Below the pieces are notes generated by a model. That model made no database searches, had not been told where the DNA came from, and saw only the letters and a program-made list of their open reading frames with translations. The translations under genes were made by a program, and so were the position numbers. Of a DNA stretch of 64,000 bases, positions 7,538 to 35,035 are shown piece after piece. The DNA is from Candidatus Lindowbacteria bacterium RIFCSPLOWO2_12_FULL_62_27 (lineage in GTDB: Bacteria; Lindowbacteria; 2-12-FULL-62-27). The stretch spans positions 124,001 through 188,000 of the forward strand of contig MFPR01000004.1 in NCBI GenBank assembly GCA_001784175.1, read 5' to 3'. Every line of letters begins with the position of its first letter. The first letter of the stretch is position 1.

Positions 7538-7643
7538 GGGCGAACACCTCCATTGGAGTTGATAAATATTTTCACGTCTTTAGGTTGACAATTTAACTGA
7601 AAAAAAAAAATGCAAGAAAAAAGAGAAAAGTGAGGCAATTGAA

Positions 7644-10861: not shown

Positions 10862-11914
10862 TTACTTTTCCTCAGCCCCTGAATCACCGTTATCGCCGGC
10901 TTCGGTGTTGACAAGCGCGGCGCCTTCCTCGCGCAGTTTCCGCCGGACTTCCTGCTCGATCTGGGCAAGCATCTGCGCGTTATCCTCTATGAATAAACGC
11001 GCGGCCTCCCGGCCCTGGCCGATTTTTTCGCCGTTGTAGGAAAGCCATGCGCCGGACTTTTTGACGACGCCCTGCAAAAGCGCGGCCTCGATCGCGCATC
11101 CGGCCCGGGACACGCCCTGGCCGAAGTAGAGATCGAACTCGGCGGACCGAAACGGCGGCGCGACTTTGTTCTTTACGACCTTGATCCGCACGCGGTTGCC
11201 GACGACTTCCGCTCCCTTTTTGAGCTGTTCAATCCGGCGGATGTCAAGCCGGACGGAGGAGTAGAATTTGAGGGCGCGCCCGCCGGGCGTGGTTTCGGGG
11301 CTGCCGAACATGACGCCGATTTTTTCGCGGAGCTGGTTGATGAAGAAACAGGTCGTCTTGGACCGCGCGATGGCGGCGGTGAGTTTCCGGAGCGCCTGAG
11401 ACATGAGGCGCGCCTGAAGGCCCATGTGCTGCTGGCCCATCTCACCCTCAAGTTCAGCCTGCGGCACGAGGGCGGCGACGCTGTCGATCACGATAATGTC
11501 GACGGCGCTGCTGCGGACAAGAGATTCGGTGATTTCGAGCGCCTGTTCGCCGGTATCCGGCTGGGAGATCAGGAGGTTCTGGACGTCGACGCCCAGTTTG
11601 GCGGCGTAGATCGGATCGAGGGCATGTTCGGCGTCGATAAAGGCCGCGATCCCGCCCGTTTTCTGGATGGCCGCGATGATGGTGAGCGTAATGGTCGTCT
11701 TGCCGGAGCTTTCCGGGCCAAAAATTTCAATGACGCGACCGCGGGGAATGCCGTCGACGCCGATGGCCAGATCCAAGGGCAGAATCCCGGTGGGGAGCGC
11801 CTCGACCTCGATGGCCTTTTTGTCTCCGAGGCGCATAATACTGCCGCGGCCAAACCTTTTTTCGATTGAATCCAGAGTCGCTTTCAGGACTTTCAACTTC
11901 TCATCTTCCACCAT
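10862..11914 (-). CDS. recA: recombinase RecA
   Basis: A 350-residue RecA with all core elements: Walker [10 protein letters not shown] (residues 66-74), the [10 protein letters not shown]-type segment as [11 protein letters not shown], Walker [13 protein letters not shown], and the loop-2 stretch [21 protein letters not shown] (in parts). The tail is acidic ([13 protein letters not shown]), as usual. RecA forms filaments on single-stranded DNA for homologous recombination and SOS induction. The start is the ATG at 11912-11914 with GGGAGG about 9 nt upstream; a longer in-frame start at 12019 is rejected because it would translate through the leader palindrome. Downstream is recQ. Confidence 0.98.
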
Positions 11915-11935
11915 ATGATTCCACCTCCCGTTTTG

Positions 11936-11956
11936 GGGTCTCCAAGTTGGAGACCC
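11936..11956. promoter_or_regulatory. perfect 10-bp palindrome in the recA leader
   Basis: GGGTCTCCAA and TTGGAGACCC are separated by one base, 21 nt upstream of the recA start. It could be an operator, an RNA hairpin ahead of the ribosome-binding site, or a dispersed palindrome. It does not match the LexA boxes CTGT-N8-ACAG or GAAC-N4-GTTC. No convincing promoter is visible nearby. Confidence 0.5.
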
Positions 11957-12074
11957 TGTTCCCATGGCCGGCACCGTAACTTTGGGCGCAGCCGCCGTCA
12001 AACAAAATCTGTTCGGCATCCGCGCCGGCGGCCTTCACCTCCGTGTGGTGGCCGCCGCGGGTTGCCGGTTTCCA

Positions 12075-18500: not shown

Positions 18501-21120
18501 AGTTATCACCAATGTTGTCCTGGCCGACTTGCCATTCTTCCGTAACACCATTTTTGAAGATTACTGATGCGTGTCTATTCCCCGCATCAGTGTTTTGAAG
18601 TTCAAGAACTGCAAGGTCGCCCTCTGCACGAATGGGTCGAGTAGCGCCTCCGACTATATGGAGTCTCAATGAAGGCGCCGTCGTCCCGATGCCGACGTTG
18701 CCGCTACTTTTTAAAGCAACCAAAACCGTATCGGCTACCACCAGCGAATCCGTGACGTTGATACTGCCCGCGAGTTTCGCGCTGGTCACCGCGCCCGCGG
18801 CGATGCTGTCGCTCGAAATCGCCGCCGTCAAATTCGCCGGAGCGAGACTGCTCGCCGAAATCCCCGTCAACCCCGACCCGCTTCCGCTAAACGTCGTCGC
18901 CGTCACCGTCCCGGCCACGTCCAACTTCGACGCCGGACTCGCCGTCCCGATGCCGACGTTGCCCTGGGTCACGATAAAATCGGTGATGGGTGTTACCTGG
19001 ATTTTGCCAAACGTGTTTGAGATGGTTGCGTCGCTGGTGTCATTCATTTCCAGCGCCAGTTGGCGGCCTGTGGTGCTGAACAGTGTCATACGTCCACCAA
19101 CGACGCCGCTTTTACCGACGCCCAACGGGCCGCCAATACGCGCAACTTCGTTTCCAAGCCCCGAACCGCCGTCGACATCAAGCTTGGCGTTCGGACTCGT
19201 CGTCCCGATGCCGACGTTGCCCGTGTCATTGATGACGAACGTCCCCGACGCGTTGTTCGAAATGACGCGCATCGTGCCGAGGATGTGCATGCTGTCGACG
19301 GGACTCGTCGTTCCGACGCCGACATTGCCGCTGTTGGACCAGGCCAGCGCAATCTTTTCATATCCGCCCCGACGCACGCCCAACGCGCCGGCCGGCGATC
19401 CCAGCCCGTACCCGAACAGGGTGGGGCCATCGATGGTTGCGGCGCTCGAAAGCTTGTTGTAGCCGAGACCATGGAATGTATCTGTGCCGTCTTGGAAAAA
19501 CAGGGTGTTTCCGCTCAACTGAATGTTTCCGCCCGCGATGTCGAGCTTCTCCGACGGCGCCGTCGTCCCGATGCCGATATTGCCGCTACTTTTTAAAGCA
19601 ACCAAAACCGTATCCGCCACCACCAGCGAATCCGTGACGTTGATACTGCCCGCGAGTTTCGCGCTGGTGACTGCGCCCGTGGCGATGCTGTCGCTCGAAA
19701 TCGCCGCCGTCAAATTCGCCGGAGCGAGACTGCTGGCCGAAATCCCCGTCAACCCAGACCCGCTTCCGCTAAACGACGTCGCCGTTACCGTCCCGGCCAC
19801 GTCCAACTTCGCCCCCGGCGTCGTCGTCCCGATGCCGACGTTGCCTGAACTTAACAACGTCATGATGGTGTTGCTCGTCGGATCAAACGCTGCGTGCGCC
19901 AATGAAATATCCAGACGAGTCCTGGAACTTGTGCCGTTGTTCTCATATCGGGACAAATTAAACGCCGCCGCCGCTCCGAATGCTTCCGACGCTTTCCCCT
20001 GGCGGGCGAGCATCAAGGTCGTCTTCGGATCATTCAACGTCGACGTGGCGGTCTGCGATTGATGCACAACCAGGAGTCCGTTTGTATCGTAAACGAAATT
20101 GTTGTCGTCAATGACCTTCAGACCGACTTGCAATTTTGTGCGCGGCGCCGTCGTGCCGATGCCGACGGCCGAATCGTAATAAATGCTGTCGCCACTCGTT
20201 GTCCACTGACTTGAACCGCCGCCACCCGATGCGGTTGTCTGAGTTGTGCCGTCAGGGAATTTGAAGCCGCCCGAGGTCGAATAAACTGTTCCTGCGACTT
20301 CCAACTTCGTCGACGGACTCGTCGTGCCGACGCCGACGTTGCCCGCTTCTGTGATAACCATTTTTGCGTGTTCAGATCCGCCTGGATAACCCACACCCGC
20401 GGCTCTCGTCCAGAATTGTATGGCCGGGTCGCCGCGATTTTCGAGACGAATCAACCTGCCGGGGTTGGCGACATTCTGTGATCTTAAACCGTTGAAATCA
20501 AAATCAACCAGATCAGCGCCGGGATGCGCTTGTATTCCCAGTTGAGAAAGTTGACCCCCAAGGCTCAATTCCGTTACTGGCGCGGTTGTCCCGATGCCGA
20601 CGTTGCCGGTCTGATGATAGACGTCTCCGTTGCCCGCCAGGGTCCAGTGCGTATCCGCGCCGGATGCAATGCCGGTGAGGAGCGATCCGTTTCCGACAAA
20701 CTTGTTCGCCGTCACGGTTTCGGCCACGGTCAGAGCGCCGTAGGCCGTCGCGCCGGTGTCGAGGAATTTGGCGATGAAGGCGTAGGGGGAGGTCGTCAGG
20801 CGAATTTTCGGGGTCATGGCTTCGCCGGCCACGGTCACTTTGAGCCAGTACTGGGTGTCGAACGCGATATTGAGCGGCGAGGTGACGCCCAGCCGCGTGC
20901 TGACGATGCCGTTTGACGGCGTCAGCGTCTGGTTTTCCGGACCCCAGACAGACACGCCGGCGTCATTGAAGATCTCGAAGTCCACGCTCTTGGACGCCAT
21001 GATCCGCGTTCCGACCGAGTCGGTCAGTTCGCCCTGGAAGGAGATATATTTCGGAACGTCCGCTCCTGCGGACAAGCTCCAGAGTAAAACCAGAAACAAA
21101 CCCAATACTGACTTTTTCAT
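15592..21120 (-). CDS. giant secreted GNVGIGTT-repeat protein with C-terminal peptidase S74 chaperone domain
   Basis: A 1842-residue exported protein (signal peptide MKKSVLGLFLVLLWSLSAGA). An N-terminal beta domain (KYISFQGELTDSVGTRIMAS) leads into about 25 copies of a (S/T)GNVGIGTTxP motif spaced 40-100 residues apart, each followed by KLDVAG/SLHVAGTVRVSDS-type strands, as in trimeric beta-helical tail-fibre stalks. The C-terminus has WATFSDGRLKNVRGDFKAG ... GLVAQEV, the S74 intramolecular chaperone of endosialidase-type proteins, where the SDGRLK serine starts self-cleavage, and ends in a coiled coil (EQQARIQAQDQRIAEL). It is probably a trimeric surface fibre. The ATG at 21120 has GGGGAGG 9 nt upstream. 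The FlgD-Ig protein gene is just upstream on the same strand. Confidence 0.85.
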   Translation of the reverse strand: MKKSVLGLFLVLLWSLSAGADVPKYISFQGELTDSVGTRIMASKSVDFEIFNDAGVSVWGPENQTLTPSNGIVSTRLGVTSPLNIAFDTQYWLKVTVAGEAMTPKIRLTTSPYAFIAKFLDTGATAYGALTVAETVTANKFVGNGSLLTGIASGADTHWTLAGNGDVYHQTGNVGIGTTAPVTELSLGGQLSQLGIQAHPGADLVDFDFNGLRSQNVANPGRLIRLENRGDPAIQFWTRAAGVGYPGGSEHAKMVITEAGNVGVGTTSPSTKLEVAGTVYSTSGGFKFPDGTTQTTASGGGGSSQWTTSGDSIYYDSAVGIGTTAPRTKLQVGLKVIDDNNFVYDTNGLLVVHQSQTATSTLNDPKTTLMLARQGKASEAFGAAAAFNLSRYENNGTSSRTRLDISLAHAAFDPTSNTIMTLLSSGNVGIGTTTPGAKLDVAGTVTATSFSGSGSGLTGISASSLAPANLTAAISSDSIATGAVTSAKLAGSINVTDSLVVADTVLVALKSSGNIGIGTTAPSEKLDIAGGNIQLSGNTLFFQDGTDTFHGLGYNKLSSAATIDGPTLFGYGLGSPAGALGVRRGGYEKIALAWSNSGNVGVGTTSPVDSMHILGTMRVISNNASGTFVINDTGNVGIGTTSPNAKLDVDGGSGLGNEVARIGGPLGVGKSGVVGGRMTLFSTTGRQLALEMNDTSDATISNTFGKIQVTPITDFIVTQGNVGIGTASPASKLDVAGTVTATTFSGSGSGLTGISASSLAPANLTAAISSDSIAAGAVTSAKLAGSINVTDSLVVADTVLVALKSSGNVGIGTTAPSLRLHIVGGATRPIRAEGDLAVLELQNTDAGNRHASVIFKNGVTEEWQVGQDNIGDNSNRFGIRYVPGNPTTEFVSVTTSGNVGIRTMSPSDSLHVAGTVRVTDSMTIGDTVFVANAKSGNVGIGTTNPLRHLHISAGSVEPELLLEKSDQAPDAKIFRLINRGARMEIGTVNDAVTVEQSVVAAFTRTGNVGIGSTTPGTRLDVSGGAHVSDSFAVGGPAGDSLVVLKSGNVGVGTASPNAKFEVNNGQSMFHDGAFTDPHTGTAYDAKFGGPNRGIAVKGISTFNDNVGIGTTAPGDSLHVAGRIQMDTNAAASAADGAIRWSGSDFEGRKAGSWASFTSTGGATPDTDWTMVGGASGNIYKSAGNVGIGTSTPSDSLHVAGTVRVSDSITVGDTVFVVNSKTGNVGIGTTNPGDELHIIGSGAGVYANIKNTTTGTSNTAGVWLERGDQANGHAVLQLATGGETAEEWQIGVRLASDDLHIRDEQSATTRMLIQKTGNVGIGTTAPGDSLHVKGGIISDTLTVGDTFLVVKKSGNVGIGTDAPGYALDVQTSGVNQYVAQFKNTDPSGSSRGLLIDITGGSSASVRPALSIATGGPGTVFEIKASGKVGIGTTSPSDTLHVVGTARVSDSMTVGDTVFTVNSKTGNVGIGTASPASRFHVPGGDVTMDENRWIKFTTPWGDRNVIGSFSNDANQAYTIIRSLDDNSANGSGIDFQNYNGVTVMKIREPGNVGIGTTTPGDSLVVKGGVISDTLTVGDTFLVVKKSSNVGVGTASPSAKLDVAGTAKFSDSVIVSDTVLVVNKQAIRVGIGIASPTGRFQVSDGEIPGNGLDDDNDGNIDELTGQTIVTAAGNVGIGTTSPSTKLEVAGGLVVDSPTLYVDATNNKVGIGTDNPDTTFSVNGGASKVGGGSWATFSDGRLKNVRGDFKAGATELMKLNPVRYQYKSDNPVGIRDGAEHIGLVAQEVKEAIPEAVESNNKGYLMLNNDPIIFAMLNAFKEQQARIQAQDQRIAELQSQIDSMKDK
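18674..18929. repeat. 256-bp direct repeat inside the fibre gene, copy 1
   Basis: Nearly identical to 19556-19811, offset 882 bp (294 codons, frame preserved). It encodes the LAPANLTAAISSDSIA and GAVTSAKLAGSINVTDS region. This suggests unit duplication by recombination within the gene. Confidence 0.9.
19556..19811. repeat. 256-bp direct repeat inside the fibre gene, copy 2
   Basis: Partner of 18674-18929 with only a handful of base differences (for example GCCGATATTG against GCCGACGTTG). Both copies keep the host reading frame. Confidence 0.9.
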
Positions 21121-21180
21121 GTTACGTGACCTCCCCAGGTCGTTTAATCCTCGACGCCGCGATGCGGCGGAAGTAACACT

Positions 21181-21246
21181 CAATATTCAACACTCAATTC
21201 TCAATTCTCAAAGTTTTCAAACTTGAAAATTGAGTATTGAATGTTG
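21181..21246. repeat. 24-nt imperfect inverted repeat between two surface-protein genes
   Basis: Arms 21181-21204 and 21223-21246 pair at 21 of 24 positions (AT-rich, TTGAATATTG-type ends). It lies between the FlgD-Ig gene stop (21268) and the fibre gene start (21120). It could be a terminator/attenuator or a dispersed palindrome; its low GC contrasts with its surroundings. Confidence 0.65.
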
Positions 21247-21267
21247 AGTGTTGAGTGTTGATTTTTT

Positions 21268-23286
21268 TCATCTCACGATCGCCATCTTGTCCACGATCTT
21301 GTTTCCGCCGCTTTGCAGGATGTAGACGTACACGCCCGATCCGAGTTTCTGGCCGTGTTTGTTCGTCGTGTCCCACGTGAGCGTGTTCGGCCCCGCCGCG
21401 CCGGGGGCCGCGAGTTCTTTGACGAGCCGGCCGGCCACGTCGAATATTTTCAGCGTCACGTCGGCGGCGGATTGCAGACTGTATTTGAAGGTCATGGCGC
21501 CCGCCGGGTCCGGACCCGGGTTCGGATACACGAACGTGTTTTCCTTCGAGAGCGGGGCGGCCAGATACGCGGTCAAATATTCGGGCGTGCCGACGACCAC
21601 GGTCAGGGTGATTGCGGATTCCAGAACCAGTGAGGAGGACTGGCGCATATTCACAGGACCGGCCGGGCCGCCGATCAGGTACGCCTCGTAGCCGTCCGGA
21701 AGGCCGGCCGCGTCCCATTTGAGGGTCGCGCTCTTTACGCCGGCCGGCGACGTGACAACTACCGGCCACGCCGTCGCGGTCTTCACCGGCGACGCGATGC
21801 TGGCGGCGTAATATTTCCCCCCACCCCCACCCTCCCCCACAAGAGGGGAGGGAGTGGAACGCGCTTCGCCAACCCACACTTGCATGTCTCCCATCATTCC
21901 CGGCGCCTTCCAGAGGTCGTTGGCGTCTTCTCCGTCCGACGCCGCCGGCGCGACGCCCAAAAACGCGTACTCGTCCCGGATTTCCGGAACGTCGCTGTAG
22001 GCCATCAGGCGGAGGCGCCAGTTCGAAACTGAACCCCCCCCTGCCCCCCCTTCAAAAGGGGGGGTGTAAACCGGGGACTGTTGTTTCACCGGCATCGTCT
22101 GCGGCAGGCGCTTGGTTGGATAATACACGATCGAGCAGGAGGCGTTCGCCTTCACCCAGAAGCCCACCCACGGTTTCAGTTGCACGGCCGTTTCGCTCGC
22201 CGCGAAGGGATTGACGTACTGCTCGGCGGTCTGCGAGCGCCACTGGAGGCGCGTGTCGATCGTTGCGGCCATCTGCGCCGGCGTCAGGGCGCGAAGCGTG
22301 ATCGGGCCCGGCGGGCCGTTCAGATTCGTGTCGACCGCCACGTCGTCCAGCCAGTCGATGAAGTGCGTGAAGGGATTTCCGATCATGTTGGCGCCGCTGT
22401 CGAGCCGCACGCTGAATGCGCCTGTCACCGCCGACGGTGAGCCTGCCAACCCCACGCTCGTGGCGCCGCTCGATCGGAACCAATAGGCCCGGCCGCTCTC
22501 ATATTGTGAAAACGTCCCGTTGGCCGACACGTGGGTCGATTCGGGCTGATTGCCGACCGACTTGTATCGGTTGAACGTCGCGTGCGCCGAGGCCAGCGTC
22601 GGGTCGTAGGAATACGAGATGGGCGTGCCGCCGTAGGACAACTGATTGAGGCCCGTCAAGGACGTGTCGGGCTTGCGAAACGGCGCGATCATCACCCACT
22701 TGCTCTTGGGCGTCTCCGTCGGATGCGCGGGCACCCGCCGCTTGTCCATCATCACCACAAATACGGCCCGGGCGGCCGACCGCTCCGCCGTGATGACGTA
22801 GGCGCCGTCCCCGCTCGAAAGCGAGACTGACTTGCTGATCCGCCCCGCCGTGTCGGACGTGGCCGAGTCGGTCGCCACCTGCGATCCTTCGTATTCGACC
22901 GTGAAGGTGACGGCGGCGTTGGGCGTAAGCCCGCCGTTGGAGGAATCCTTCACATCCAAAACGAGCGTGACGAATCCGCCGCCGGTTCCGACCAGATGCG
23001 CGTCGCCCACGATCACGAGCGAGTCGCCCACCGTGCCGACGGGCGCCACATGGCGGAAATAAAAGAGGCCGGTGTTGAGGACGTAGGAGGCGCCGGCGAG
23101 CGTGTCCGTGCCGGTTTGGCCGACCGAGGCGAGGAGGTTGTAGCTGGGCGAGGAGAGGGTGTCACCGCCGGTGGAGATCACGGGTTCGGTGATCTGGTGG
23201 ACAGTGGACGAAAGGACCGCGTATGCGATGAGACCGAGGGCGGCGATCAGGATCAGGGCAAGACCGAGACGCTTTTGCCTGGTCAT
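21268..23286 (-). CDS. secreted surface protein with C-terminal FlgD-Ig (T9SS-sorting-like) domain
   Basis: A 672-residue exported protein: an N-terminal hydrophobic signal (LGLALILIAALGLIAYAV), a SPSYNLLASVGQTGTDTLAGASYVLNTG segment (in parts) found at the start of many such proteins, beta-rich middle domains, and a final 85-residue FlgD-Ig module (YPNPGPDPAGAMTFKYSL ... IFDVAGRLVKEL ... GSGVYVYILQSGGNKIV). That module resembles type IX secretion sorting domains, but no T9SS gene is in the window. Two dispersed palindromes are inserted in frame, giving TPPFEGGAGGG near residue 415 and SPLVGEGGGGG near residue 480. The ATG at 23286 has GGAG 7 nt upstream. Confidence 0.75.
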   Translation of the reverse strand: MTRQKRLGLALILIAALGLIAYAVLSSTVHQITEPVISTGGDTLSSPSYNLLASVGQTGTDTLAGASYVLNTGLFYFRHVAPVGTVGDSLVIVGDAHLVGTGGGFVTLVLDVKDSSNGGLTPNAAVTFTVEYEGSQVATDSATSDTAGRISKSVSLSSGDGAYVITAERSAARAVFVVMMDKRRVPAHPTETPKSKWVMIAPFRKPDTSLTGLNQLSYGGTPISYSYDPTLASAHATFNRYKSVGNQPESTHVSANGTFSQYESGRAYWFRSSGATSVGLAGSPSAVTGAFSVRLDSGANMIGNPFTHFIDWLDDVAVDTNLNGPPGPITLRALTPAQMAATIDTRLQWRSQTAEQYVNPFAASETAVQLKPWVGFWVKANASCSIVYYPTKRLPQTMPVKQQSPVYTPPFEGGAGGGSVSNWRLRLMAYSDVPEIRDEYAFLGVAPAASDGEDANDLWKAPGMMGDMQVWVGEARSTPSPLVGEGGGGGKYYAASIASPVKTATAWPVVVTSPAGVKSATLKWDAAGLPDGYEAYLIGGPAGPVNMRQSSSLVLESAITLTVVVGTPEYLTAYLAAPLSKENTFVYPNPGPDPAGAMTFKYSLQSAADVTLKIFDVAGRLVKELAAPGAAGPNTLTWDTTNKHGQKLGSGVYVYILQSGGNKIVDKMAIVR
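21831..21851. repeat. in-frame palindromic insert encoding SPLVGEGGGGG
   Basis: CCTCCCC and GGGGAGG flank 7 nt. The translated mark PSPLVGEGGGGG is typical of a dispersed repeat class that sits in coding regions of many genomes. It lies in a loop between two beta strands of the surface protein. Confidence 0.65.
22044..22064. repeat. in-frame palindromic insert encoding TPPFEGGAGGG
   Basis: Seven C, TTCAAAA, seven G. The translation PPFEGGAGGG is a well-known product of a dispersed palindromic repeat. The frame of the surface protein is retained across it. Confidence 0.7.
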
Positions 23287-23528
23287 GACAAAGCTCCGCC
23301 GCTGAGCGGGCCGGCGTCGGAGACGCCGGCACCTGGGACGCCGGAGGCGCTGACCCGACAAACGATCTGGGACTTCCCTCTAAAACCCAGAGACTGTGTT
23401 TGTATTGTATGCATTACACCCCGTCCAATGGAGCGAAATTTTACTTGGGTGAATAGTACTTCATGGGATGAGAATGTCAAACATATATTGATATTGATGG
23501 AGAAAGGCGAAGTGAGACCCCCCTTTGT

Positions 23529-23547
23529 CCCCCCTTTTCAAGGGGGG
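23529..23547. repeat. CCCCCCTT-TTC-AAGGGGGG palindrome
   Basis: Eight-base arms with a 3-nt loop, just downstream of the reverse transcriptase stop. The minus-strand reading PPLKRGDKGG marks a third member of the same palindromic repeat group. The rest of the 272-bp gap 23287-23558 shows no gene. Confidence 0.7.
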
Positions 23548-23558
23548 AAAAAACGGAT

Positions 23559-25124
23559 CTAAACCTGCCTCGTGCGGCCCGGCAAAAGTGGCGCGGCCGG
23601 ATGACGCGCGGGCGGGGCGACGTGGGCGCCGATGCCGCCGGGGCGGGACAGGGCGAATTCGGCGGCGCGGCGGGCGAAGAAATCCTGTTCGGCGCGGGCG
23701 CGGCGGCGGAGCAGATCCTGGACGTGCGGGCGGCGGAGGCGGCTGAGGAGCAGGTAGAGATATTTCCGGACGCTCGCGTACTTTTCGACGCGGGCCGCGA
23801 GGAAGAGCGAATCCGCGGGGATCAGATCGTAGCGGTCGATGCGGATGAGGGCTTCGAGCGCGGCGAGCCTGAGGAGGAGCGGGTATCCGGGATGGGCCGC
23901 GCGCCAGAGCGCGGGGACGGCCCGGAGGGCGCCGAGTTCGCCCAAGGCCCAGGCCGCGCGGATGCGGACGAGGAGCGCGCGGCGGGAAAAGAGGCACTCG
24001 AGGAACCGGTTGACGGCGTTGGGGTCGGACAAAAGCGCGGTGGCGGAGACCGAGGGTTCGAGGGCCCACGGAAAGTCGAGGCATTTCTGGAAGCGGGCGG
24101 CGAGAGGGGCGCAATTATATATGGAGAGGCGGGTGGCGTAAAAGCGGAGCCTGAAGAGCGCGGGCTTGAGTTTGCGCGCGTCGGCCTTGTGGCTGAAGGC
24201 GACGCTCCGAAAGGCCGACGAAAAGCCGTTCGAGAGAGCGGCGCGGAGCCCGCGGATGGTTCGCGCGAAATCCGGATTGGCGCGGAGCAGTTGCCGGCCC
24301 CATCCGTGCGCGGAAGAATAGGGGTCCTTGAGGTTGAGCCGAGGGAATTTCAAATGAAAGTAACTGTTCCACGGATCGTTGAGCGGGCGGCGGCCGCGGA
24401 GCGTAAGGAAATTCTGTGCGAGCCAGTCGGTCGAAACGAAAATGCCGGCGGCCCGGAGGCCCTGAACGTAGGCGCGGAGCGTCAGCGTCGGATACCGCGC
24501 ATAGAGGCGCAGATAATCAGGCGGCACGTGGTAGAGCGTGCGCGCGATGCGGTCAAAATCGTGGGCCAAGCCGACCCATCCGGCGGGGCTGCAGGCGCCG
24601 TCGAAGGCGCGGGAGGACGGGCCGATCTCGGCCTTGCCGAAATGGGTCGGGAGGCCAAACCGCGACCAGAGGGTTTTGCGGAGGCCGTTGAATGTGTTTT
24701 GAATCTCGCGGCGGTCGGCGCCGAAGAGGAACATGTCGTCGACGTAGCGATGGTACCGGCCGCGGAGTTTCCATCCGTTGAGGAGTTCGTGGTCGAAGGG
24801 CGTGAGATACGCGTTGGCCAGAACGCCCGAGATGGTGGGGCCGGCCGGAAGGTCCATGCCGTCATTGAGGATGAGCGACCGGAACGCGGTGAAGAGCGGA
24901 TCTTTGGGAAGCATCCCGCCGAGGGTTTCGATAAGCTGGCCGCGCCGGACGTGCGGGTAAAACTTGCGGACGTCGGTTTTGACGTAATACCGGTACCGGC
25001 CCGCCGCGCGGCGCGCGGACTGCTCAAATTGTCCCCAGGAGGACCGCCAGTCGAGGAAGAGCCGGTCGGAGGAGTGGATGCCGGCGAGCCGGTTGCCGCA
25101 GGAGACGCGGCCGAACCGGTCCAT
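23559..25124 (-). CDS. reverse transcriptase with HEAT-like C-terminal region
   Basis: From the first ATG (25124) 521 residues are encoded, but the domain clearly begins further upstream. RT motifs: YVKTDVRKFYPHV (catalytic D51), LPAGPTISGVLANAYLTPFD (92-111), YVDD (127-130) and FGKAEIGP. The IPKKPGEDRPY motif 1 lies before the ATG. The fingers/palm order and the ANxYLxxFD element resemble unknown-group (UG)/Abi and DGR-type RTs more than group II intron RTs; no maturase or HNH domain is seen. Residues about 385-500 form alpha-helical HEAT-like units (RIRAAWALGELGALRAVPALW). C-terminal alpha-repeat domains are known in Abi-type defence RTs. The gene follows the Minf_1886 gene. Confidence 0.8.
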   Translation of the reverse strand: MDRFGRVSCGNRLAGIHSSDRLFLDWRSSWGQFEQSARRAAGRYRYYVKTDVRKFYPHVRRGQLIETLGGMLPKDPLFTAFRSLILNDGMDLPAGPTISGVLANAYLTPFDHELLNGWKLRGRYHRYVDDMFLFGADRREIQNTFNGLRKTLWSRFGLPTHFGKAEIGPSSRAFDGACSPAGWVGLAHDFDRIARTLYHVPPDYLRLYARYPTLTLRAYVQGLRAAGIFVSTDWLAQNFLTLRGRRPLNDPWNSYFHLKFPRLNLKDPYSSAHGWGRQLLRANPDFARTIRGLRAALSNGFSSAFRSVAFSHKADARKLKPALFRLRFYATRLSIYNCAPLAARFQKCLDFPWALEPSVSATALLSDPNAVNRFLECLFSRRALLVRIRAAWALGELGALRAVPALWRAAHPGYPLLLRLAALEALIRIDRYDLIPADSLFLAARVEKYASVRKYLYLLLSRLRRPHVQDLLRRRARAEQDFFARRAAEFALSRPGGIGAHVAPPARHPAAPLLPGRTRQV

Positions 25125-25433
25125 CGCGCGTTCGAGGGGCTCGCGCGCGGCGAGAATCAGTGCGACCGCGGCGACTTCGTCCTTGAAATTCCGGTACGCG
25201 TACGGCCGGTCCTCGCCGGGTTTTTTGGGGATCGGAAACCGCAGGATGGGGCTCCAGCGGTATCCGCGCCGGATGTGATCGGCGACCCTCCGCAGGTTAT
25301 CCCAGAGGCGCCATTCGAAGAGGCGGACCTCGATGGTGTCGTAGTAGGGCGACTCCCACTGCCACTGGCGCGCCTTGAGAAAGGCGGCGTAGAGGATGCG
25401 GAGGTCGGCGGCGCGGTCTAAAAGGTTTATGAT
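25125..25433 (-). other. upstream coding extension of the reverse transcriptase, no canonical start
   Basis: The RT frame stays open upstream of 25124 and encodes recognisable RT sequence (LYAAFLKARQWQWESPYYD, WDNLRRVADHIRRGYRW, ILRFPIPKKPGEDRPYAY). No ATG, GTG or TTG occurs in frame between 25124 and the overlapping Minf_1886 stop codon. Translation could start at ATC/ATA (25428-25433), which overlaps that TAA, or arise by frameshifting from the upstream gene; a sequencing error is also possible. Confidence 0.75.
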
Positions 25434-25846
25434 GGCCGGCGGCGGGTGCGGGTGCGGACCGTCCGAGTGGCTTTGAGGATGGCGGCCGGAGAAAACGCCT
25501 CCTCGAAATCGAAGACGTTGCTGAAATCGGCGAGCGTGTCCTCGTCGGTCTTGGTCATTTTTCCCGCGTCCACGAGCGCAAATACGATCCGGCCGATGGT
25601 TTCCGTGGAGTCGATGCCCCAGGCGTTCAGGACCTCCCTGACCATCAGGCCGTACTCGCGCGCGGCGAGGTCCCGGACGGCCTTGCAGAGTTCCTGTCCG
25701 GAGATATGCCGCCGCTGTCGGAGGCCGCGGAGGCTCGTGTCGAGGGCGGAGAGAACGAATCCCAGCGCCTGGGGGCGGACGATCCCGCCGAGAGCCTCGT
25801 TGGCGATTTTTTCAAGTTCCTCGTATGCGCTCGTCTGTTTTTTCAT
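25427..25846 (-). CDS. Minf_1886-family protein
   Basis: 139 residues matching the Minf_1886 family: an AYEELEKIANEAL opening, FVLSALDTSLRGLRQRRHISGQELCKAVRDLA (in parts), then YGLMVREVLNAWGIDSTETIGRIVFALVDAGKMTKTDEDTLADF and FDFEEAF (in parts). The family is small, helical and uncharacterised. The ATG at 25846 is used; the earlier in-frame M has no support. No Shine-Dalgarno is present, but a promoter -10 ends 8 nt upstream. The gene overlaps the reverse transcriptase frame at its stop codon. Confidence 0.8.
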   Translation of the reverse strand: MKKQTSAYEELEKIANEALGGIVRPQALGFVLSALDTSLRGLRQRRHISGQELCKAVRDLAAREYGLMVREVLNAWGIDSTETIGRIVFALVDAGKMTKTDEDTLADFSNVFDFEEAFSPAAILKATRTVRTRTRRRPS

Positions 25847-25854
25847 TTCGGATT

Positions 25855-25883
25855 TATATATCTTACGGCCGGGAGGCGCGCAA
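25855..25883 (-). promoter_or_regulatory. candidate promoter for the Minf_1886 gene
   Basis: TTGCGC (25878-25883), 17 bp, TATATA (25855-25860) on the minus strand, then 8 nt to the ATG. It overlaps the end of the upstream CapD-like gene, so the RT pair could be transcribed separately from the glycan genes. Confidence 0.45.
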
Positions 25884-27284
25884 TGTGCCTGCATCGGCGT
25901 ATTCGGGGATCATCTGTTCCAGCCGGCGGCAGAGGTCGGCGTCTTCGCCGTCTTCGGCGGCCGCCAGAAGGCCTTGGACCTGGTCTTCGACCGCCGATAG
26001 TTCCGGCGGGTCCTCGATGACCTCCAGAAGATAGTCATCGACCCTCCGGCACGGGATTTCCGACAGATCCTCCTTCAGTTTTTCTCCCGGCCCCAGGCCC
26101 GTGTAGACGATCGGGACATCGACGCCGGGGGTTTTTCCGAAAAATCGAATGAGGTCATGGACCAGTTCCGTGATGTACATCGGTTCGCCGATGTCGAGGA
26201 TGTAGATTTTCCCGGGCCGGCCGGCGGCGGCGCTGGAGAGGACGAGTTCGACGGCTTCGGAGGCGAGCATGAAATAGCGGCGGGCGCCGGGGTCGGTCAC
26301 GGTAACCGGGCCGCCGCGCTCGATCTGCTCGATGAATTTGGGCAGGACACTGCCGGAACTTCCGAGGACGTTTCCGAACCGGACTGAGATCAGCCGTCGG
26401 CCGGGGGCGCGGTCCTGCGCGGCCTGGACGATGAGTTCGCCGGCGCGTTTGGTCGCGCCCATGATCGAGGCCGGGCGGATGGCCTTGTCGGTCGACACGT
26501 GGACGAATGTGTGAACGCCGCCGGCGAGGGCGGCCTCGACGAGGAGATGCGTCGAAGCGACGTTGTTCCGGACGGCGGCGCGAACCTCGCGGTCGAGGAT
26601 GCAGACATGTTTGTAGGCGGCGGCGTGAAAGACGACCGTCGGCGAGAACCGGTCAAACACTCTCTGGACGTCGGCCGGGCGGGACATGTCGGCGAGGAAC
26701 CATGACGGGCCGGTGGCCCATTCGCTGAGCCGATAGACCGCAAGCTCCGACAGATCGACGCCGGCCAGGGCTTCCAGCGGAAATTGCGCGAGCTGCGAAA
26801 CCATTTCCATTCCGATGGTGCCGCCGGCGCCGGTGACCAGGACGCGCTGGCCTTTCAGAAAGGCCGCGACTTTGCCCTTTTCGAGGACGCGCGGATGGCG
26901 GCGCAGGAAATCCTCGGGATTCACGTCCCGGACCGTCGTGATGGGGTCGTTGGTCGCGACGATGCTCCAGACGCCGGGCACGATCAGCGCGGGGATTTCC
27001 TCCTGCATGAGTTTCCGGTGGATCTCGCGGATCCGGCGGCCCGGCGCCGACGGGATGGCGATGAGGACGCGTTCGGCGCCGTATTTTCGCAGGAAAGGCC
27101 GGATGGGTCCTCCGGCCCATTCGATCGGAAGGCCGGCCAACGTCCGGCCGACTTTGCGGGTGTCGTCATCGACAAACGCGACCGGGCGGATGTTCGGAGC
27201 ATGGCCGCGGGCAAGCCCCTGGACCACGAGCTCTCCGGCCTCGCCGGCGCCGTAAATGACGACCCGGAGTTCCGTGGGCGTCAA
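25863..27284 (-). CDS. CapD/FlaA1-like UDP-sugar 4,6-dehydratase/epimerase
   Basis: A 473-residue protein with two nucleotide-binding parts. Residues about 5-130 are a CoA-binding-like Rossmann unit (VVIYGAGEAGELVVQGLARG). The SDR dehydratase follows, with GAGGTIGME as the NAD(P) loop and STDKAIRPASIMGATKR, where the MxxxK replaces the usual YxxxK as in WbpM/FlaA1 enzymes. These make UDP-4-keto-6-deoxy sugars from UDP-GlcNAc for surface glycans. The N-terminal membrane helices of full WbpM are absent. It overlaps the GT2 gene upstream by 4 nt (ATGA). Confidence 0.85.
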   Translation of the reverse strand: MTPTELRVVIYGAGEAGELVVQGLARGHAPNIRPVAFVDDDTRKVGRTLAGLPIEWAGGPIRPFLRKYGAERVLIAIPSAPGRRIREIHRKLMQEEIPALIVPGVWSIVATNDPITTVRDVNPEDFLRRHPRVLEKGKVAAFLKGQRVLVTGAGGTIGMEMVSQLAQFPLEALAGVDLSELAVYRLSEWATGPSWFLADMSRPADVQRVFDRFSPTVVFHAAAYKHVCILDREVRAAVRNNVASTHLLVEAALAGGVHTFVHVSTDKAIRPASIMGATKRAGELIVQAAQDRAPGRRLISVRFGNVLGSSGSVLPKFIEQIERGGPVTVTDPGARRYFMLASEAVELVLSSAAAGRPGKIYILDIGEPMYITELVHDLIRFFGKTPGVDVPIVYTGLGPGEKLKEDLSEIPCRRVDDYLLEVIEDPPELSAVEDQVQGLLAAAEDGEDADLCRRLEQMIPEYADAGTLRASRP

Positions 27285-28033
27285 TCGACCAGGCCCAGGC
27301 GGTGCAGAAGGATGCGGCCCATGAGGCCGAGATGATCGAGGATGTTTTGCGCGAGTTTCATTTTCGACGCGCCCTGCTGCCGGGGCCGCATGAAGGAGGG
27401 AATTTCCTTGATGCGCGCCCCGCTTAAGAGGAGCGTGTAGGTGACTTCGGCGCCGAAGAGGTAGCGGTCGTTTCGAAGTTTCAATTTCATGAAGGCCGCG
27501 CGTCGATAGAGCCGGAAGACGGCGCTGATGGTGTAGATGCCCCTCATGTGCGGCCAGAGGATGATCCGGTACAGGAAGGAGGCGGCGCGGCTCAGATAGA
27601 GCCGGTGCGCAACGACGTTCCCGCAGCTTCCGCCGGGAGCGTACGGCGACGCGGCAATGACGTCGGTCGAGTCGTCCATGAGTTCAAACATGAGAAGGAT
27701 GTGCTCGATCGGATAGTTGCAGTCGGACTCGTAGACGACGACGAACGTGTCCTCCGCCCGAGCGAATCCCTCGCGGACGGCGGCGCCGAGCCCGCGGTTC
27801 TGGGGCAGGTTGACGACTTCGGTGTCCGGCAGTTTCTTGCGTTCCGCCTCGAGAACTTGAGCGGTGCGGTCGGCGCTGCCGTCGTTGACGAAAATGACGC
27901 GAGGCGGCGGCGCGCCGGCGTCTTTGAGAAGCCCGATCAGTTTTTGGAGTTGTCCGACCAAATGGGGCACGGCCGCCTCTTCATTGAAACATGGAATGAC
28001 CATGGAAAACCGGCCGGCATCCTTTACCTGCAT
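27281..28033 (-). CDS. family 2 glycosyltransferase
   Basis: 250 residues with a GT-A fold: FSMVIPCFNEEAAVPHLVGQL, VIFVNDGSADRTAQVL, NLPQNRGLGAAVREGFARAE (in parts). The usual DADxQH metal-binding region reads ESDCNYPIEH, so the first acidic residue is shifted. A C-terminal amphipathic stretch suggests membrane association (DPM1/GtrB-like, without the extra transmembrane pair). It probably transfers a sugar to a lipid carrier. GGGAGGGG lies upstream of the ATG. It is the first gene of a two-gene unit with the CapD-like enzyme. Confidence 0.85.
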   Translation of the reverse strand: MQVKDAGRFSMVIPCFNEEAAVPHLVGQLQKLIGLLKDAGAPPPRVIFVNDGSADRTAQVLEAERKKLPDTEVVNLPQNRGLGAAVREGFARAEDTFVVVYESDCNYPIEHILLMFELMDDSTDVIAASPYAPGGSCGNVVAHRLYLSRAASFLYRIILWPHMRGIYTISAVFRLYRRAAFMKLKLRNDRYLFGAEVTYTLLLSGARIKEIPSFMRPRQQGASKMKLAQNILDHLGLMGRILLHRLGLVD

Positions 28034-28088
28034 GCATCCCCTCCCGTCGATATCACGTGCGCGATATTATCTAGACGCTGCGAACTTA

Positions 28089-28967
28089 TCAACGCTTTCC
28101 CGGATCCCGATAGAAACGGTGGATTTCCTCCAGACCCTCGGACAGCGTGACCTCCGGATGCCAGCCCAGAAGCCGCGCCGCCTTTCGAATGTCCGCCTGA
28201 CAGACGAGCGGCGGATCGGACGACGAGGCGGCGGGCGCGATCTGCGGTTTGACGGCCACGCCGGTCAGGCGGATCACGAGGTCCGCAAGGTCCTGCAGGG
28301 ACGTGGCGACGCCGGCGCCGATGTTGATGATTTCGCCCGAGGCCGCTTCGGCGTCGATGGCCAGCGCGATCGCGCGGCAGACATCGCGGACGTGGACAAA
28401 ATCCCTGGCGGTGCCCGGATGGGATTTGATCACCGGCGCGCGGCCCTGCAGAACGTTTTTCATGAACGCCGCTTCCACCGTCGGGCGCTCCTCCAATCCG
28501 GCGGACAGCCCATACACGTTGAACAGCCGGAGGATCGTGGTCGGAAGGCCGAAAACGCGGCACATGATGAGGCACGAGAGTTCTCCGCTGTGCTTGCTGG
28601 CCGCGTAGGGCGACGCGGGCCGGACCGGATGAGTTTCGTCGACCGGTTGGGCGTCGGGCGGGCCGTAGACTTCGCAGGTCGATGTGTAGACGACTTTTTT
28701 AACGCCGGCGCGCCGGGCGGCGTCCAGCACGTTGAACGTCCCGAGGGCGTTCACTTCGAAGTCTTCGTCCGGGAATTCGAAACTGCGGTTGACCGGAAGA
28801 CACGCCAAGTGAACGACCACGTCGATCCCCTCCATCGCGGCGCGCACTTCCGAGGCGCGCCGGACATCCGCCCGGATGGAACAGACCCGAAGACCCCGGG
28901 CGGCAAGGACCGGTGCGAGGTGCCGTCCGATGTAGCCATCGGCGCCGGTGATCAGGACGGTGGTCAT
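28089..28967 (-). CDS. NAD-dependent sugar epimerase/dehydratase
   Basis: 292 residues, extended SDR: TTVLITGADGYIGRHLAPVLAARG binds NAD, the active site is TSTCEVYGPP with YAASKHSGE (Y, K), and RLFNVYGLSAGLE lines the sugar pocket. It acts on a nucleotide-diphosphate sugar, perhaps as a GalE-like 4-epimerase; substrate not determinable. The ATG at 28967 was chosen because the NAD-binding strand starts there. It lies 13 nt downstream of the next epimerase gene and is probably cotranscribed with it and wecB. Confidence 0.85.
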   Translation of the reverse strand: MTTVLITGADGYIGRHLAPVLAARGLRVCSIRADVRRASEVRAAMEGIDVVVHLACLPVNRSFEFPDEDFEVNALGTFNVLDAARRAGVKKVVYTSTCEVYGPPDAQPVDETHPVRPASPYAASKHSGELSCLIMCRVFGLPTTILRLFNVYGLSAGLEERPTVEAAFMKNVLQGRAPVIKSHPGTARDFVHVRDVCRAIALAIDAEAASGEIINIGAGVATSLQDLADLVIRLTGVAVKPQIAPAASSSDPPLVCQADIRKAARLLGWHPEVTLSEGLEEIHRFYRDPGKR

Positions 28968-28980
28968 CGCAGAAGAAGCA

Positions 28981-29943
28981 TCACTGCAGGGCCGTTTTGT
29001 ACCACGCCACCGTCCGGCGGATGCCCTCTTCGAGCGGCACCGCGGGTTTGAATCCCAGTTCGGCCTGCGCGAGGCGGGTGTCGGCCAGATGCCGGCGGAC
29101 GTCGGCGGGCCGGGCCGGTTCACGGATCGGCTCGCCGGTGTAATCGAGCGCGCGGGAAATCTGCCGGATCAGCTCGTGGATGGTGACTTCCCGGCCGGAT
29201 GCGATGTTGACGGTGCGGCCGTGCATCCGATCGGACTTGGCGGCCGACACGATTCCCTCGACGGTGTCGGTCACATACAGGAAATCGCGCGTCTGTTCGC
29301 CGTCGCCGAAAATCACCGGCGGCTGGCCGGCCAATATCCGGCGGATCACGACCGGGATGATGGCCGCGTAACTGCCTTCATTTTGGCGCGGGCCGTAATT
29401 GTTGAAGGGCCGGATGATGGCCATGTCGATGTTGAAGGTCCGGGCGTAGGAGCGCACGAGCAGGTCCGCCGCGGCCTTGGCCGCCGCATAGGGCGTCTCG
29501 ACCATCATCGGGTGGTCCTCGTCCATCGGCACGCGGACGGCCGATCCGTAGGCCTCGGAGGACGAGCAGTGGATGAGGGTTTTGAAAAGGCCCTGCCGGC
29601 AAAGCGCGCAGAAGACGAGCATCATGCGGTAGATTTCCTCCGCCGCCCAGTCGGGTCTTTCGAGAGACGCGGGGAGCGGGATGGTGGCCATGTCGAAGAC
29701 GACGTCGATCTTTTCGTCGCCGACCACCTGGCGCATCCGGTCGATGTCGCAGACGCTTTCGACGACAAGTTTCAGTTGCGGAAACTTTGTGAACGCCTCC
29801 GCCAAGTTCGACCGTTTTCCGAGAAAGAGGTTGTCGACCACCACAAGTTTCCCCGGTTTCTCCGGAATCAGGCGGTCGACGAGGTGGCTTCCGATGAATC
29901 CGGCGCCGCCGGTGACGAGGATCGACCGGTCCTTCAGTTCCAC
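28981..29943 (-). CDS. NAD-dependent nucleotide-sugar epimerase/dehydratase (dTDP-glucose dehydratase-like)
   Basis: About 320 residues from a GTG at 29943. ILVTGGAGFIGSHLVDRL is the NAD loop; IHCSSSEAYGSAVRVPM and TPYAAAKAAADLLVRSYARTF hold the catalytic Ser and YxxxK; FNNYGPRQNEGSYAAIIP and VIFGDGEQTRDFLYV follow. It is close to the dTDP-glucose 4,6-dehydratase/UDP-glucuronate decarboxylase group. The start overlaps the wecB stop by 10 nt, implying coupling. Confidence 0.85.
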   Translation of the reverse strand: MELKDRSILVTGGAGFIGSHLVDRLIPEKPGKLVVVDNLFLGKRSNLAEAFTKFPQLKLVVESVCDIDRMRQVVGDEKIDVVFDMATIPLPASLERPDWAAEEIYRMMLVFCALCRQGLFKTLIHCSSSEAYGSAVRVPMDEDHPMMVETPYAAAKAAADLLVRSYARTFNIDMAIIRPFNNYGPRQNEGSYAAIIPVVIRRILAGQPPVIFGDGEQTRDFLYVTDTVEGIVSAAKSDRMHGRTVNIASGREVTIHELIRQISRALDYTGEPIREPARPADVRRHLADTRLAQAELGFKPAVPLEEGIRRTVAWYKTALQ

Positions 29944-31136: not shown

Positions 31137-31167
31137 CTGAATATTTCAAGAAGCTCGGCCGTTTTTC

Positions 31168-31195
31168 TTGCTTTCCGGCCGCCGGCTGGTAAAAT
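31168..31195 (+). promoter_or_regulatory. candidate promoter for the deacetylase-formyltransferase operon
   Basis: TTGCTT (31168-31173), 16 bp, TAAAAT (31190-31195), then 11 nt to the ATG at 31207. No Shine-Dalgarno. The predicted leader is about 5 nt. Confidence 0.45.
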
Positions 31196-31206
31196 CCTTT
31201 TTGCCG

Positions 31207-32936: not shown

Positions 32937-33945
32937 GAAACCTTACCTGCGGTATGCCCTGAATATCGGCATCAGCGTTCTCATCCTGGGATTCATCTTC
33001 ACCCAGGTCTCGATCGCCCAGATCACCGGCAGCCTCCGGGCCGCCGACCTCGCCCTGGTGCTGCTCTCCTGCGCGCTCGGGGTGTTAAGCCTGATCCTCT
33101 CTGCGTGGCGGTGGGGGATGCTGCTGGAATATCTCGGACAGACCCACGGATTCGGCCTCCTTTGCCGCCTCACGTTCACGGCGTTTTTCTACAATAACTT
33201 TCTGCCCGGCGGCGTTGCGGGAGAAGTCGCGCGGGTTGCGATGTTACCACCGGCCGATGCCGGCATGGACCGGCAGACGCACCTGACGCGGATCACCGCG
33301 ACGGTGGTGACCGACCGGATCGTCGGCATGATCGGGATCATGCTCCTGGCGTTTTTCGGATTCGTTTTCTCCCGGGACCTTCTTCGAGACGACCGGCTGT
33401 CGGCCGTGTTTGTCCTGCTGACGCTGGGCCTCCTGGCGGTCTTTGTCGTCCTGTTCAGCCGCCGGATCCAGAGCCGGGTCAAGACCCTCTTTGCGGCGCC
33501 GCTCAGGATTCTCGCGCCGGTCCGCGGGCCGATCAGGACCATGACCGACGCGCTCTTCGTCTACCGGGACCGGTACGACGTCTTCTTCAAGACCATCCCG
33601 GTCAGCGTGGCCGCGAACATCTGCGTCGTCGGATATTTCTTTTTCCTGGCGCGGTCGATCGACGTCGATATCGGATTTTTCAAACTGCTCCTCTTCGTGC
33701 CCTTCATCGAATTCGTCTCGACCATTCCGGTGTCGTTGAGCGGGGTCGGCATCCGCGAAGCCACGACGATTTTGCTGTTCGCGTCCCAGGGCGTGTCGGC
33801 CGCGCAGTCGATCGCGGTGTCGCTTCTGACGTTTGTGGTGCTCGTGGTTCTCGGCGCGATCGGGGCGTTCTTTTTCTTTTTCCGGAAATCACCCGCGCAG
33901 CCGGTCGATGGTGCTCCACCGAAGCCGGATGATGGGAGGCAGTGA
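32929..33945 (+). CDS. UPF0104/LPG-synthase-TM family membrane protein
   Basis: 338 residues with about eight transmembrane helices (ALNIGISVLILGFIF; VLLSCALGVLSLILSAWRW; IGIMLLAFFGFVFS; LLTLGLLAVFVVLF and others) and the family mark FYNNFLPGGVAGEVARV. This is the flippase-like N-terminal domain found in MprF and in polysaccharide gene sets, here without a synthetase domain. TTG start at 32929 overlaps the previous stop by 8 nt. The C-terminus overlaps the convergent rnhB gene by 57 bp. Confidence 0.85.
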   Translation: MSKKPYLRYALNIGISVLILGFIFTQVSIAQITGSLRAADLALVLLSCALGVLSLILSAWRWGMLLEYLGQTHGFGLLCRLTFTAFFYNNFLPGGVAGEVARVAMLPPADAGMDRQTHLTRITATVVTDRIVGMIGIMLLAFFGFVFSRDLLRDDRLSAVFVLLTLGLLAVFVVLFSRRIQSRVKTLFAAPLRILAPVRGPIRTMTDALFVYRDRYDVFFKTIPVSVAANICVVGYFFFLARSIDVDIGFFKLLLFVPFIEFVSTIPVSLSGVGIREATTILLFASQGVSAAQSIAVSLLTFVVLVVLGAIGAFFFFFRKSPAQPVDGAPPKPDDGRQ

Positions 33946-34509
33946 GCGGACGGCCAGGCGGTTTTTCAAGAGCTGTGCGCGAAGCCACGAGACGGTCTTG
34001 GGATCGCCGGGATAGCCGGAGCCGACTTCGCCCCACTTGCCTTTGAGCCGGTCCATGTCGCGGTCCCGGATCACCTTGGCGACGATGGACGCGGCCGAGA
34101 CGATCGGATGGTTCTGGTCAGCCTTCCACTCGGCGGTCACGTCGAGGCCGGGGAACCGCTCGATCAACTCCCTGGTGAGCCGGTGCGGCGGGAGGAAGGC
34201 GTCGACGATGAGTCGGTCGGGCCGGATTTTTTCGATAAGCCGGCACAGCACGTCGTATTCGAGCCGGTTCAGATTCGAGTCCGGCCGGTTGATGGCCGCG
34301 GGCGTGACGCGCTCGTAGGCGATTTCAAACCGTTCCGTCAGCCGGTCGAACACGCGCTCGCGGGCCTTGCGGGTCAGCGCCTTCGAGTCGCGCACGCCCA
34401 GTTCGCGGAATATCCCCATCTGGGACTCGTCGGCAAGGACGGCGCCCATGACCATCGATCCGAGGACCGGCCCGCGGCCGGCTTCGTCGAGGCCGACGAT
34501 CCGGGTCAC
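33889..34509 (-). CDS. rnhB: ribonuclease HII
   Basis: 206 residues. Motif GLDEAGRGPVLGSMV carries the first acidic pair, and the DSKALTRKAR and IVDAFLPP segments and VSAASIVAKVIRDR complete the type 2 RNase H site, which removes misincorporated ribonucleotides and RNA primers from DNA. The GTG start overlaps the zapA stop (GTGA), so it is coupled to the division genes. Convergent overlap of 57 bp with the UPF0104 gene. Confidence 0.93.
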   Translation of the reverse strand: MTRIVGLDEAGRGPVLGSMVMGAVLADESQMGIFRELGVRDSKALTRKARERVFDRLTERFEIAYERVTPAAINRPDSNLNRLEYDVLCRLIEKIRPDRLIVDAFLPPHRLTRELIERFPGLDVTAEWKADQNHPIVSAASIVAKVIRDRDMDRLKGKWGEVGSGYPGDPKTVSWLRAQLLKNRLAVRSLPPIIRLRWSTIDRLRG

Positions 34510-34808
34510 GGCGCGGACTCCAAGGCGGGCGGTTCCGGCCGGACCGCCAGCTCGAGGCGCTCGGCCAGGCCGCGGAGGAAATCCTCGACGCGGTCGAGTT
34601 TGGTCTCCTGCTTGTGGCGAATCAGCTCCTCGGCGATGTTCAGGGCGGTGAGGAGGAGCATGCGTTCGTTGGAGATCATGCCGTAGTGTTCGGAGACTGT
34701 TTTGAGTTTGCGGTCGATGAGATTGGCGGCGAGCCGGACGCGCTCGGGATTTTCCGGCGTGTCGAAGACGTGTTTTTTCCCGAGGATCATCACTTCCACG
34801 CTCGGCAT
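34506..34808 (-). CDS. zapA: cell division protein ZapA
   Basis: 100 residues: a short beta head (VEVMILGKKHVFDTPENPERV) and a long coiled helix (AANLIDRKLKTVSEHYGMISNERMLLLTALNIAEELI, in parts), the ZapA pattern that bundles FtsZ filaments. The last 20 residues are an unconserved proline-rich tail. It sits between the zapB-like gene and rnhB with 1-4 nt overlaps. Confidence 0.85.
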   Translation of the reverse strand: MPSVEVMILGKKHVFDTPENPERVRLAANLIDRKLKTVSEHYGMISNERMLLLTALNIAEELIRHKQETKLDRVEDFLRGLAERLELAVRPEPPALESAP

Positions 34809-35035
34809 CAGACGTCCTCCGCCAGGAGGTTCAATCGGGCGAGGGCGGTTTCGAGTTTCCGGGTCGAGTGCTTGACGCGTTTTTCAAACCGGTCGCGTTC
34901 GGCGGTGACTTCGAGGAGCCGGTTCCGGAGCCGGTCGTTCTCCCGGTGCAGGACAACATTCTGCCGCGCCAAGTCCTCCTTGGCGCGAACCAGTTTGTCG
35001 GTCAGCCCCTCCACGCGGGACATCAACTGATCCAA
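34808..35035 (-). CDS. small coiled-coil protein (ZapB-like)
   Basis: 75 residues, almost entirely heptad-rich helix (LVRAKEDLARQNVVLHRENDRLRNRLLEVTAERDRFEKRV, in parts). Position directly before zapA and length suggest a ZapB-like partner; sequence alone only shows a coiled coil. A TTG start (35035) with GGGAGGGG upstream; an ATG at 35023 is the alternative. It is the first gene of the zap-rnhB unit. Confidence 0.65.
   Translation of the reverse strand: MDQLMSRVEGLTDKLVRAKEDLARQNVVLHRENDRLRNRLLEVTAERDRFEKRVKHSTRKLETALARLNLLAEDV

Follow-up and report, generated by a model that had tools for sequence, protein, structure and literature searches.

The reverse transcriptase locus

The reverse transcriptase (RT) gene analyzed here lies on the minus strand of a 64,000-nt stretch of DNA (hereafter referred to as the window), which is part of the 4.39 Mb assembly of Candidatus Lindowbacteria bacterium RIFCSPLOWO2_12_FULL_62_27. 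ORF analysis of the window revealed that the RT frame is open from stop to stop between positions 25811 and 23559, and that it groups together an RT domain, a linker and a C-terminal HEAT/alphaRep region (Table 1). The RT core matches the Pfam family RVT_1 with 29.4 bits, slightly under the gathering score of 29.6, while the tail matches HEAT_2 with 29.4 bits, above the gathering score of 27.7. Residues 464–621 also resemble alphaRep proteins of the PDB (best E-value 2.5e-13), and these matches together bear out the HEAT-like C-terminus that had been proposed from the sequence alone in the first-pass annotation. The C-terminal tail of the protein carries a conserved RHxAAxLLPxRTR motif. A structure model of the RT built from four sequences was poor (pLDDT 47) and was set aside. 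A 606-aa ORF on the plus strand (23601–25421), which runs antiparallel over nearly the whole length of the RT gene, was likewise discarded as its shadow.

Table 1. Positions of the RT gene, its motifs and its neighbors in the window (residues counted from the ATC at 25433)
Feature	Position	Strand	Remarks
RT gene	23559..25433	-	624 codons + stop, counting from ATC 25433-25431
Candidate RT starts ATC + ATA	25428..25433	-	codons 1 and 2, at the Minf_1886 stop
RT motif 1 IPKKPGEDRPY, residues 68-78	25200..25232	-	upstream of ATG 25124
First canonical in-frame RT start, ATG, residue 104	25122..25124	-	Met invariant in 3/3 genomes
RT motif VKTDVRKFY, first catalytic aspartate D154	24957..24983	-	sequence motif
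Catalytic YVDD, residues 230-233	24735..24746	-	sequence motif
RT domain, about residues 10-280			
RT linker, residues 281-455			
C-terminal HEAT/alphaRep region of RT, residues 456-600	23634..24068	-	HEAT_2 + PDB alphaRep matches
Minf_1886 family gene (TIGR04138)	25427..25846	-	139 codons + stop from ATG 25846; further ATG at 25894
rnhB (RNase HII)	33889..34509	-	upstream neighbor in 3/3 genomes
zapA frame	34506..34883	-	stop-to-stop; upstream of rnhB in 3/3 genomes; homology to G001 ZapA
recA	10862..12019	-	downstream neighbor; also in G002

The gene that directly precedes the RT scores 107.5 bits on the TIGR04138 (Minf_1886) model, whose cut-off is 60. Its predicted structure is all-helical (pLDDT 91), and comparison of this model with solved structures returned no fold match with an E-value below 1. 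We compared the locus among three related genomes of the phylum, one per genus: that of the window and two others, termed G001 and G002, which include the contigs JAHFCY010000059.1 and JACQOF010000127.1, both from metagenome-assembled genomes (MAGs). The gene order at the RT locus is zapA-rnhB-Minf_1886-RT-merR-recA: in the window and in G002 zapA and rnhB are found upstream and merR and recA downstream of the RT, and in G001 the series from zapA to the RT is contiguous. In the two former genomes rnhB is separated from Minf_1886, by a polysaccharide cluster in the window and by two other genes in G002. Given this synteny, the RT is passed on vertically as part of the chromosome, and by gene order it is tightly linked to Minf_1886 alone. 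No recognized defense genes were found beside the RT, the recognized neighbors being the core genes rnhB, zapA and recA.

Several other features of the region deserve a mention. The genes for polysaccharide and sugar-nucleotide metabolism occupy positions 25863–33945 of the window and have apparently been inserted between rnhB and Minf_1886. In G001 (locus 4923–7875) rnhB, Minf_1886 and the RT overlap in one operon; the first of the two overlaps, between rnhB and Minf_1886, is an ordinary ATGA, which the second, between Minf_1886 and the RT, is not. In the window, the product of the gene directly downstream of the RT (21268–23286, minus strand) has FlgD_ig and type IX-like C-terminal sorting domains and is probably secreted; G001 and G002 have different genes at this place. 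A gene for an 1863-aa protein (15592–21183, minus strand) also lies between the RT and merR-recA; the protein has many repeats of the NVGIGTTxPxxxLHVxG type and a Peptidase_S74 chaperone end, and resembles fiber proteins. An imperfect inverted repeat with 37-nt arms, 78% complementary, lies between these two secreted protein genes (21175–21266).

A startless reading frame conserved in three genera

The RT frame of the window contains no ATG, GTG or TTG until the ATG at 25124, which encodes residue 104 if the ATC at 25433 is taken as codon 1, and initiation there would remove motif 1. Thus, the two observations with which the first-pass annotation had begun, namely that motif 1 (residues 68–78) lies well before the first ATG and that no canonical start precedes it back to the overlapping stop codon of Minf_1886, both hold. 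All three genomes encode the RT at full length directly behind Minf_1886, with 66–71% identity for the RT and a parallel 68–75% for Minf_1886, and in each of them the frame lacks a canonical start ahead of motif 1. In the window the first canonical start is that of residue 104, in G001 it coincides with the V of FPVPKK, and G002 has its first one, a GTG, about 90 codons into the frame, so that residues 14–67 precede every canonical start in all three. In these residues the proportion of synonymous differences (pS) is 0.60–0.74 and that of nonsynonymous ones (pN) 0.12–0.15 over the three genome pairs, which gives a pN/pS of 0.16–0.25, equal to or below that of the remainder of the gene. Since this segment evolves as protein, we take its translation as established. 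Our alignment of the three proteins revealed that LYAAFLKARQWQWESPYYDT is invariant, as are D154 and the YVDD at 230–233, and that the gene is under purifying selection over its full length, with no internal stops.

A missing start codon is commonly a sign that the sequence or its assembly is wrong or that the gene has decayed, and the fact that the other two genomes are represented by MAG contigs may add to such a suspicion. Nonetheless, the same junction is found in three separate assemblies from three genera, and so is neither an error of one assembly nor a product of chance; the normal start that a corrected sequence might have supplied was looked for in the other two assemblies, and neither supplies one. 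Together with the lack of internal stops, the invariant catalytic residues and the purifying selection along the whole gene, this agreement leaves error and decay practically excluded as explanations. The frequency of such frames was assessed in 580 kb of sequence belonging to two genomes, plus a single contig of 14.7 kb. Of the 39 orthologous ORF pairs that we compared, only the two pairs with this RT had, in both genomes, conserved coding that reached more than 10 codons ahead of the first canonical start; startlessness is hence not an apparent habit of the lineage. By these comparisons the finding is real; with the odd junction shared throughout the phylum, it stands firmer than a reading of the window alone could tell.

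The junction of Minf_1886 and RT

In the window, the stop codon of Minf_1886 (TAA, 25429–25427) sits within the heptanucleotide ATCATAA (25433–25427), through which the RT frame passes in the -1 register. Read in the RT frame, the junctions are CC ATC ATA A (window), ACC ATC CTG A (G002) and AAA ATC CTG A (G001), and in the Minf_1886 frame the same sites read CGC CGG CCA TCA TAA, CAC AAA CCA TCC TGA and AAG AAA AAA TCC TGA, respectively. The candidate start codon ATC (25433–25431) is therefore common to all three genomes, while codon 2, which overlaps the stop by 4 nt, is ATA (25430–25428) in the window and CTG in the other two. This agrees with the earlier proposal of a non-canonical start at ATC or ATA overlapping the Minf_1886 stop, and the gene overlap likewise lends support to the proposed coupling of the two proteins. 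The A that precedes TC is the third base of a Minf_1886 codon (CCA, CCA and AAA), and CCA makes up 8–9% of the proline codons in these genomes; its retention is mildly unexpected, but it was spotted post hoc. No Shine-Dalgarno-like site was found ahead of the RT junction, and in two of the three genomes Minf_1886 itself has none. RNA structure at the junction is no better than that of shuffled sequence (z-scores -0.5, 0.8 and 0.8, for pseudoknot-free folds).

The junction has the features to be expected of near-cognate reinitiation: no canonical start, an overlap with the stop, and upstream codons under protein selection. We propose that Minf_1886 and the RT belong to one operon, in which the RT comes last, and that ribosomes reaching the end of Minf_1886 most likely begin again at a near-cognate codon of the overlap, either AUC or the following AUA/CUG. 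This would yield the RT at a low level tied to that of Minf_1886, and the low constitutive dosage could hold a potentially toxic polymerase in check. An overlap of 4 nt is the commonest among coupled gene pairs, and reinitiation occurs at short overlaps (PMC10666635); AUC, AUA and CUG are all within the seven strongest start codons of E. coli according to work cited in PMC12350097. As in termination-reinitiation pairs of the ATGA type, codon 2 of the RT gives a 4-nt overlap (ATAA, CTGA, CTGA), but such pairs start at ATG, GTG or TTG, while the start of the RT would be near-cognate in all three genomes. In each genome a canonical start would be within reach of single changes: CTG to TTG at codon 2 and TTA to TTG at codon 5 are silent for both proteins, any of ATG, GTG or TTG could replace the CTG of codon 2 with the serine of Minf_1886 kept, and ATA to ATG would leave Minf_1886 intact, with its stop changed from TAA to TGA. 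None of the three genomes uses any of these routes, even though synonymous sites there differ at 60–74%. The absence of a canonical start despite the available silent changes suggests selection for weak initiation, which, coming from three genomes, is an argument, not proof.

Two other ways of making the protein have to be considered. A programmed -1 frameshift near the end of Minf_1886, which the first-pass annotation had offered as an alternative, would produce a Minf_1886-RT fusion protein. In all three genomes the RT frame indeed lies in the -1 register with respect to Minf_1886 and continues open past its stop, and AAG AAA AAA TCC TGA in G001 is a plausible slip site. The run of A residues is, however, found in G001 alone and neither in the window nor in G002, and this weakens the proposal; the same can be said of the unremarkable RNA structure around the junction (again for pseudoknot-free folds) and of the stretch open in both frames, which in G002 amounts to only about seven codons. 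We consider the frameshift improbable. The other possibility is that translation begins downstream, at the ATG of residue 104 or at a GTG elsewhere, and that the upstream part is not protein. M104 is invariant in the three genomes, and an extra short form of the RT may exist; on the other hand, a start at 104 drops motif 1, the first canonical starts differ in position among the genomes, and the region ahead of them bears the signature of protein evolution described above, all of which makes a downstream start very improbable. An in-frame stop five codons ahead of the ATC shuts the RT frame in G002, so the frame must be entered within a short stretch around the overlap. Near-cognate reinitiation thus remains our preferred reading of the junction.

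Relationship to known reverse transcriptases

Comparison of the RT with the DRT models of PADLOC identified UG35 as the top defense profile in all three genomes (124–142 bits). The protein from the window is led by UG35 (126 bits), followed by UG25 and UG21, and UG25 ranks second or third in all three. The UG35 alignment extends past the RT core, to residue 459–478, and covers positions 325–789 of the 938 in the model. Together with the HEAT/alphaRep tail, this supports the resemblance to Abi/UG-type RTs that had been suspected. As a scale, RTs that we fetched scored 376 (UG21), 402 and 804 (UG9) and 537 bits (AbiP2) on the models of their own groups, and about 170–250 bits on the nearest other groups. 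By score and length the RT falls outside UG35, with 124–142 bits against the 376–804 bits that members of other groups reach on their own models. On the UG35 (PDLC03774) and UG25 (PDLC03763) models alike, the RT aligns beyond the core, to about residue 443–478, but it scores only 84–142 bits on them, not above the scores between different UG groups, and it lacks the approximately 270–330 residues that these models have ahead of the RT domain. No true UG35 members were found in two small phyla. Because of the low UG35 score relative to the scores of members on their own models, we regard the RT as UG/Abi-like but, on this profile evidence, it is an ungrouped lineage outside the groups whose models were compared.

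In a tree of 20 RTs the three proteins from the phylum form their own clade (100/100) on a long stem. The tree, proposed in the first-pass annotation as a way to place the enzyme, separated it from the DGR-type RTs, which fall on another side (93/86). Its position relative to UG and group II RTs is weakly supported: the value for a place close to UG9/UG21 and the group II types is 62/70, in a small reference set where AbiP2 forms a long branch. Class 1 UG/Abi RTs (AbiK, AbiA, Abi-P2 and DRT3b) share the architecture of this enzyme, with an alphaRep/HEAT region behind the RT domain (PMC13174585), but AbiP2 and AbiK are not among the best 25 profiles for this RT, which differs from Class 1 also in its fixed chromosomal locus, its pairing with Minf_1886 and its lack of a canonical start.

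Searches for the hallmarks of DGR, group II intron and retron RTs were negative. No template/variable repeat pair of a DGR was found within positions 20500–30500 (a distant variable repeat would escape this search). The group II intron model TIGR04416 gave 48 bits against a cut-off of 300, and the Rfam scan revealed no intron RNA. As for a retron msr/msd, the sequence upstream of the RT is Minf_1886 coding sequence in all three genomes, and Rfam gave no match; the only RNAs that the Rfam scan reported were tRNAs. Class 2 DRTs are templated by an ncRNA encoded next to the RT. Since zapA, rnhB, Minf_1886 and the RT abut or overlap in G001, an upstream intergenic ncRNA has no room there. In the same genome a 131-aa ORF, convergent with the RT and matching no Pfam family, ends 12 nt past the RT stop, and a downstream ncRNA would be compatible with it only if this ORF is no gene; an undescribed RNA may be located downstream or inside coding sequence. 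Viral contigs contained no close relatives of the RT, and tblastn searches of plasmids and phages returned only matches to the RT core, with less than 33% identity.

Possible function of the RT and of Minf_1886

The linkage of RT and Minf_1886, whose conservation the first-pass annotation had proposed to check, holds inside the phylum (3/3 genomes) but not in the genomes searched elsewhere. Minf_1886 is present in 40 of 290 genomes sampled across the domain; in 29 loci from other phyla, the sequence up to about 1.5 kb from Minf_1886 contains no RT of this type and neither rnhB nor zapA. The partner described here is a member of TIGR04138 above the cut-off, but differs in this respect from the other 29 loci of the family, which have no nearby RT. 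In a phylum rich in Minf_1886 (9 of 11 sampled genomes have it), a sample of 392 genomes contained no close relatives of the RT. In another genome, G052, a 797-codon open frame on the minus strand resembles, by eye only, an RT-Cas1 fusion.

Class 1 UG/Abi RTs need no nucleic-acid template for DNA synthesis, and some of them are protein-primed (PMC13174585). By analogy, the RT probably synthesizes DNA without a nucleic-acid template, and its purpose is most plausibly antiviral defense. It is because of its relatives that we consider defense the likeliest purpose, and because of the fixed locus that housekeeping is its main rival. The RT could be made as proposed but serve the cell itself, for instance in DNA repair with RNase HII or RecA. 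It is present in all three genomes, in two of them between zapA-rnhB and merR-recA, its conservation is about that of its neighbors, rnhB overlaps Minf_1886 and Minf_1886 overlaps the RT in G001, and plasmid, phage and viral collections hold no close relative. Yet the adjacency of such ordinary core genes as rnhB, zapA and recA may be incidental, and the studied relatives with the RT-alphaRep architecture are antiviral (PMC13174585). We therefore regard a housekeeping role as rather unlikely, though a serious contender. For the reading as a whole, that is, an intact, vertically inherited and ungrouped UG/Abi-like RT, expressed at a low level by near-cognate reinitiation coupled to Minf_1886 and most plausibly antiviral, we would give even chances. 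That it represents a new UG/Abi-like system fixed in the phylum, with Minf_1886 as its functional partner and low, coupled expression from a conserved near-cognate start, is a tentative proposal, to which we give slightly less credence than to housekeeping.

Implications

Most studied RTs of the RT-alphaRep architecture are scattered defense systems, and the fixation of this one in a core locus of the phylum suggests domestication. The UG/Abi-like kind of RT is already known; what is new here is the genomic setting and the unusual, conserved mode of initiation. Owing to the conserved absence of ATG, GTG and TTG, gene callers would truncate or miss the enzyme, losing motif 1, and similar genes may for this reason be under-counted. 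At the junction, the idea that dosage is controlled by near-cognate reinitiation can be put to the test, and the locus gives an initial clue to the role of Minf_1886. Should the RT indeed form a new system with Minf_1886 as its functional partner, this widespread family would for the first time have a functional setting, and an untemplated DNA polymerase would have a domesticated role on the chromosome.
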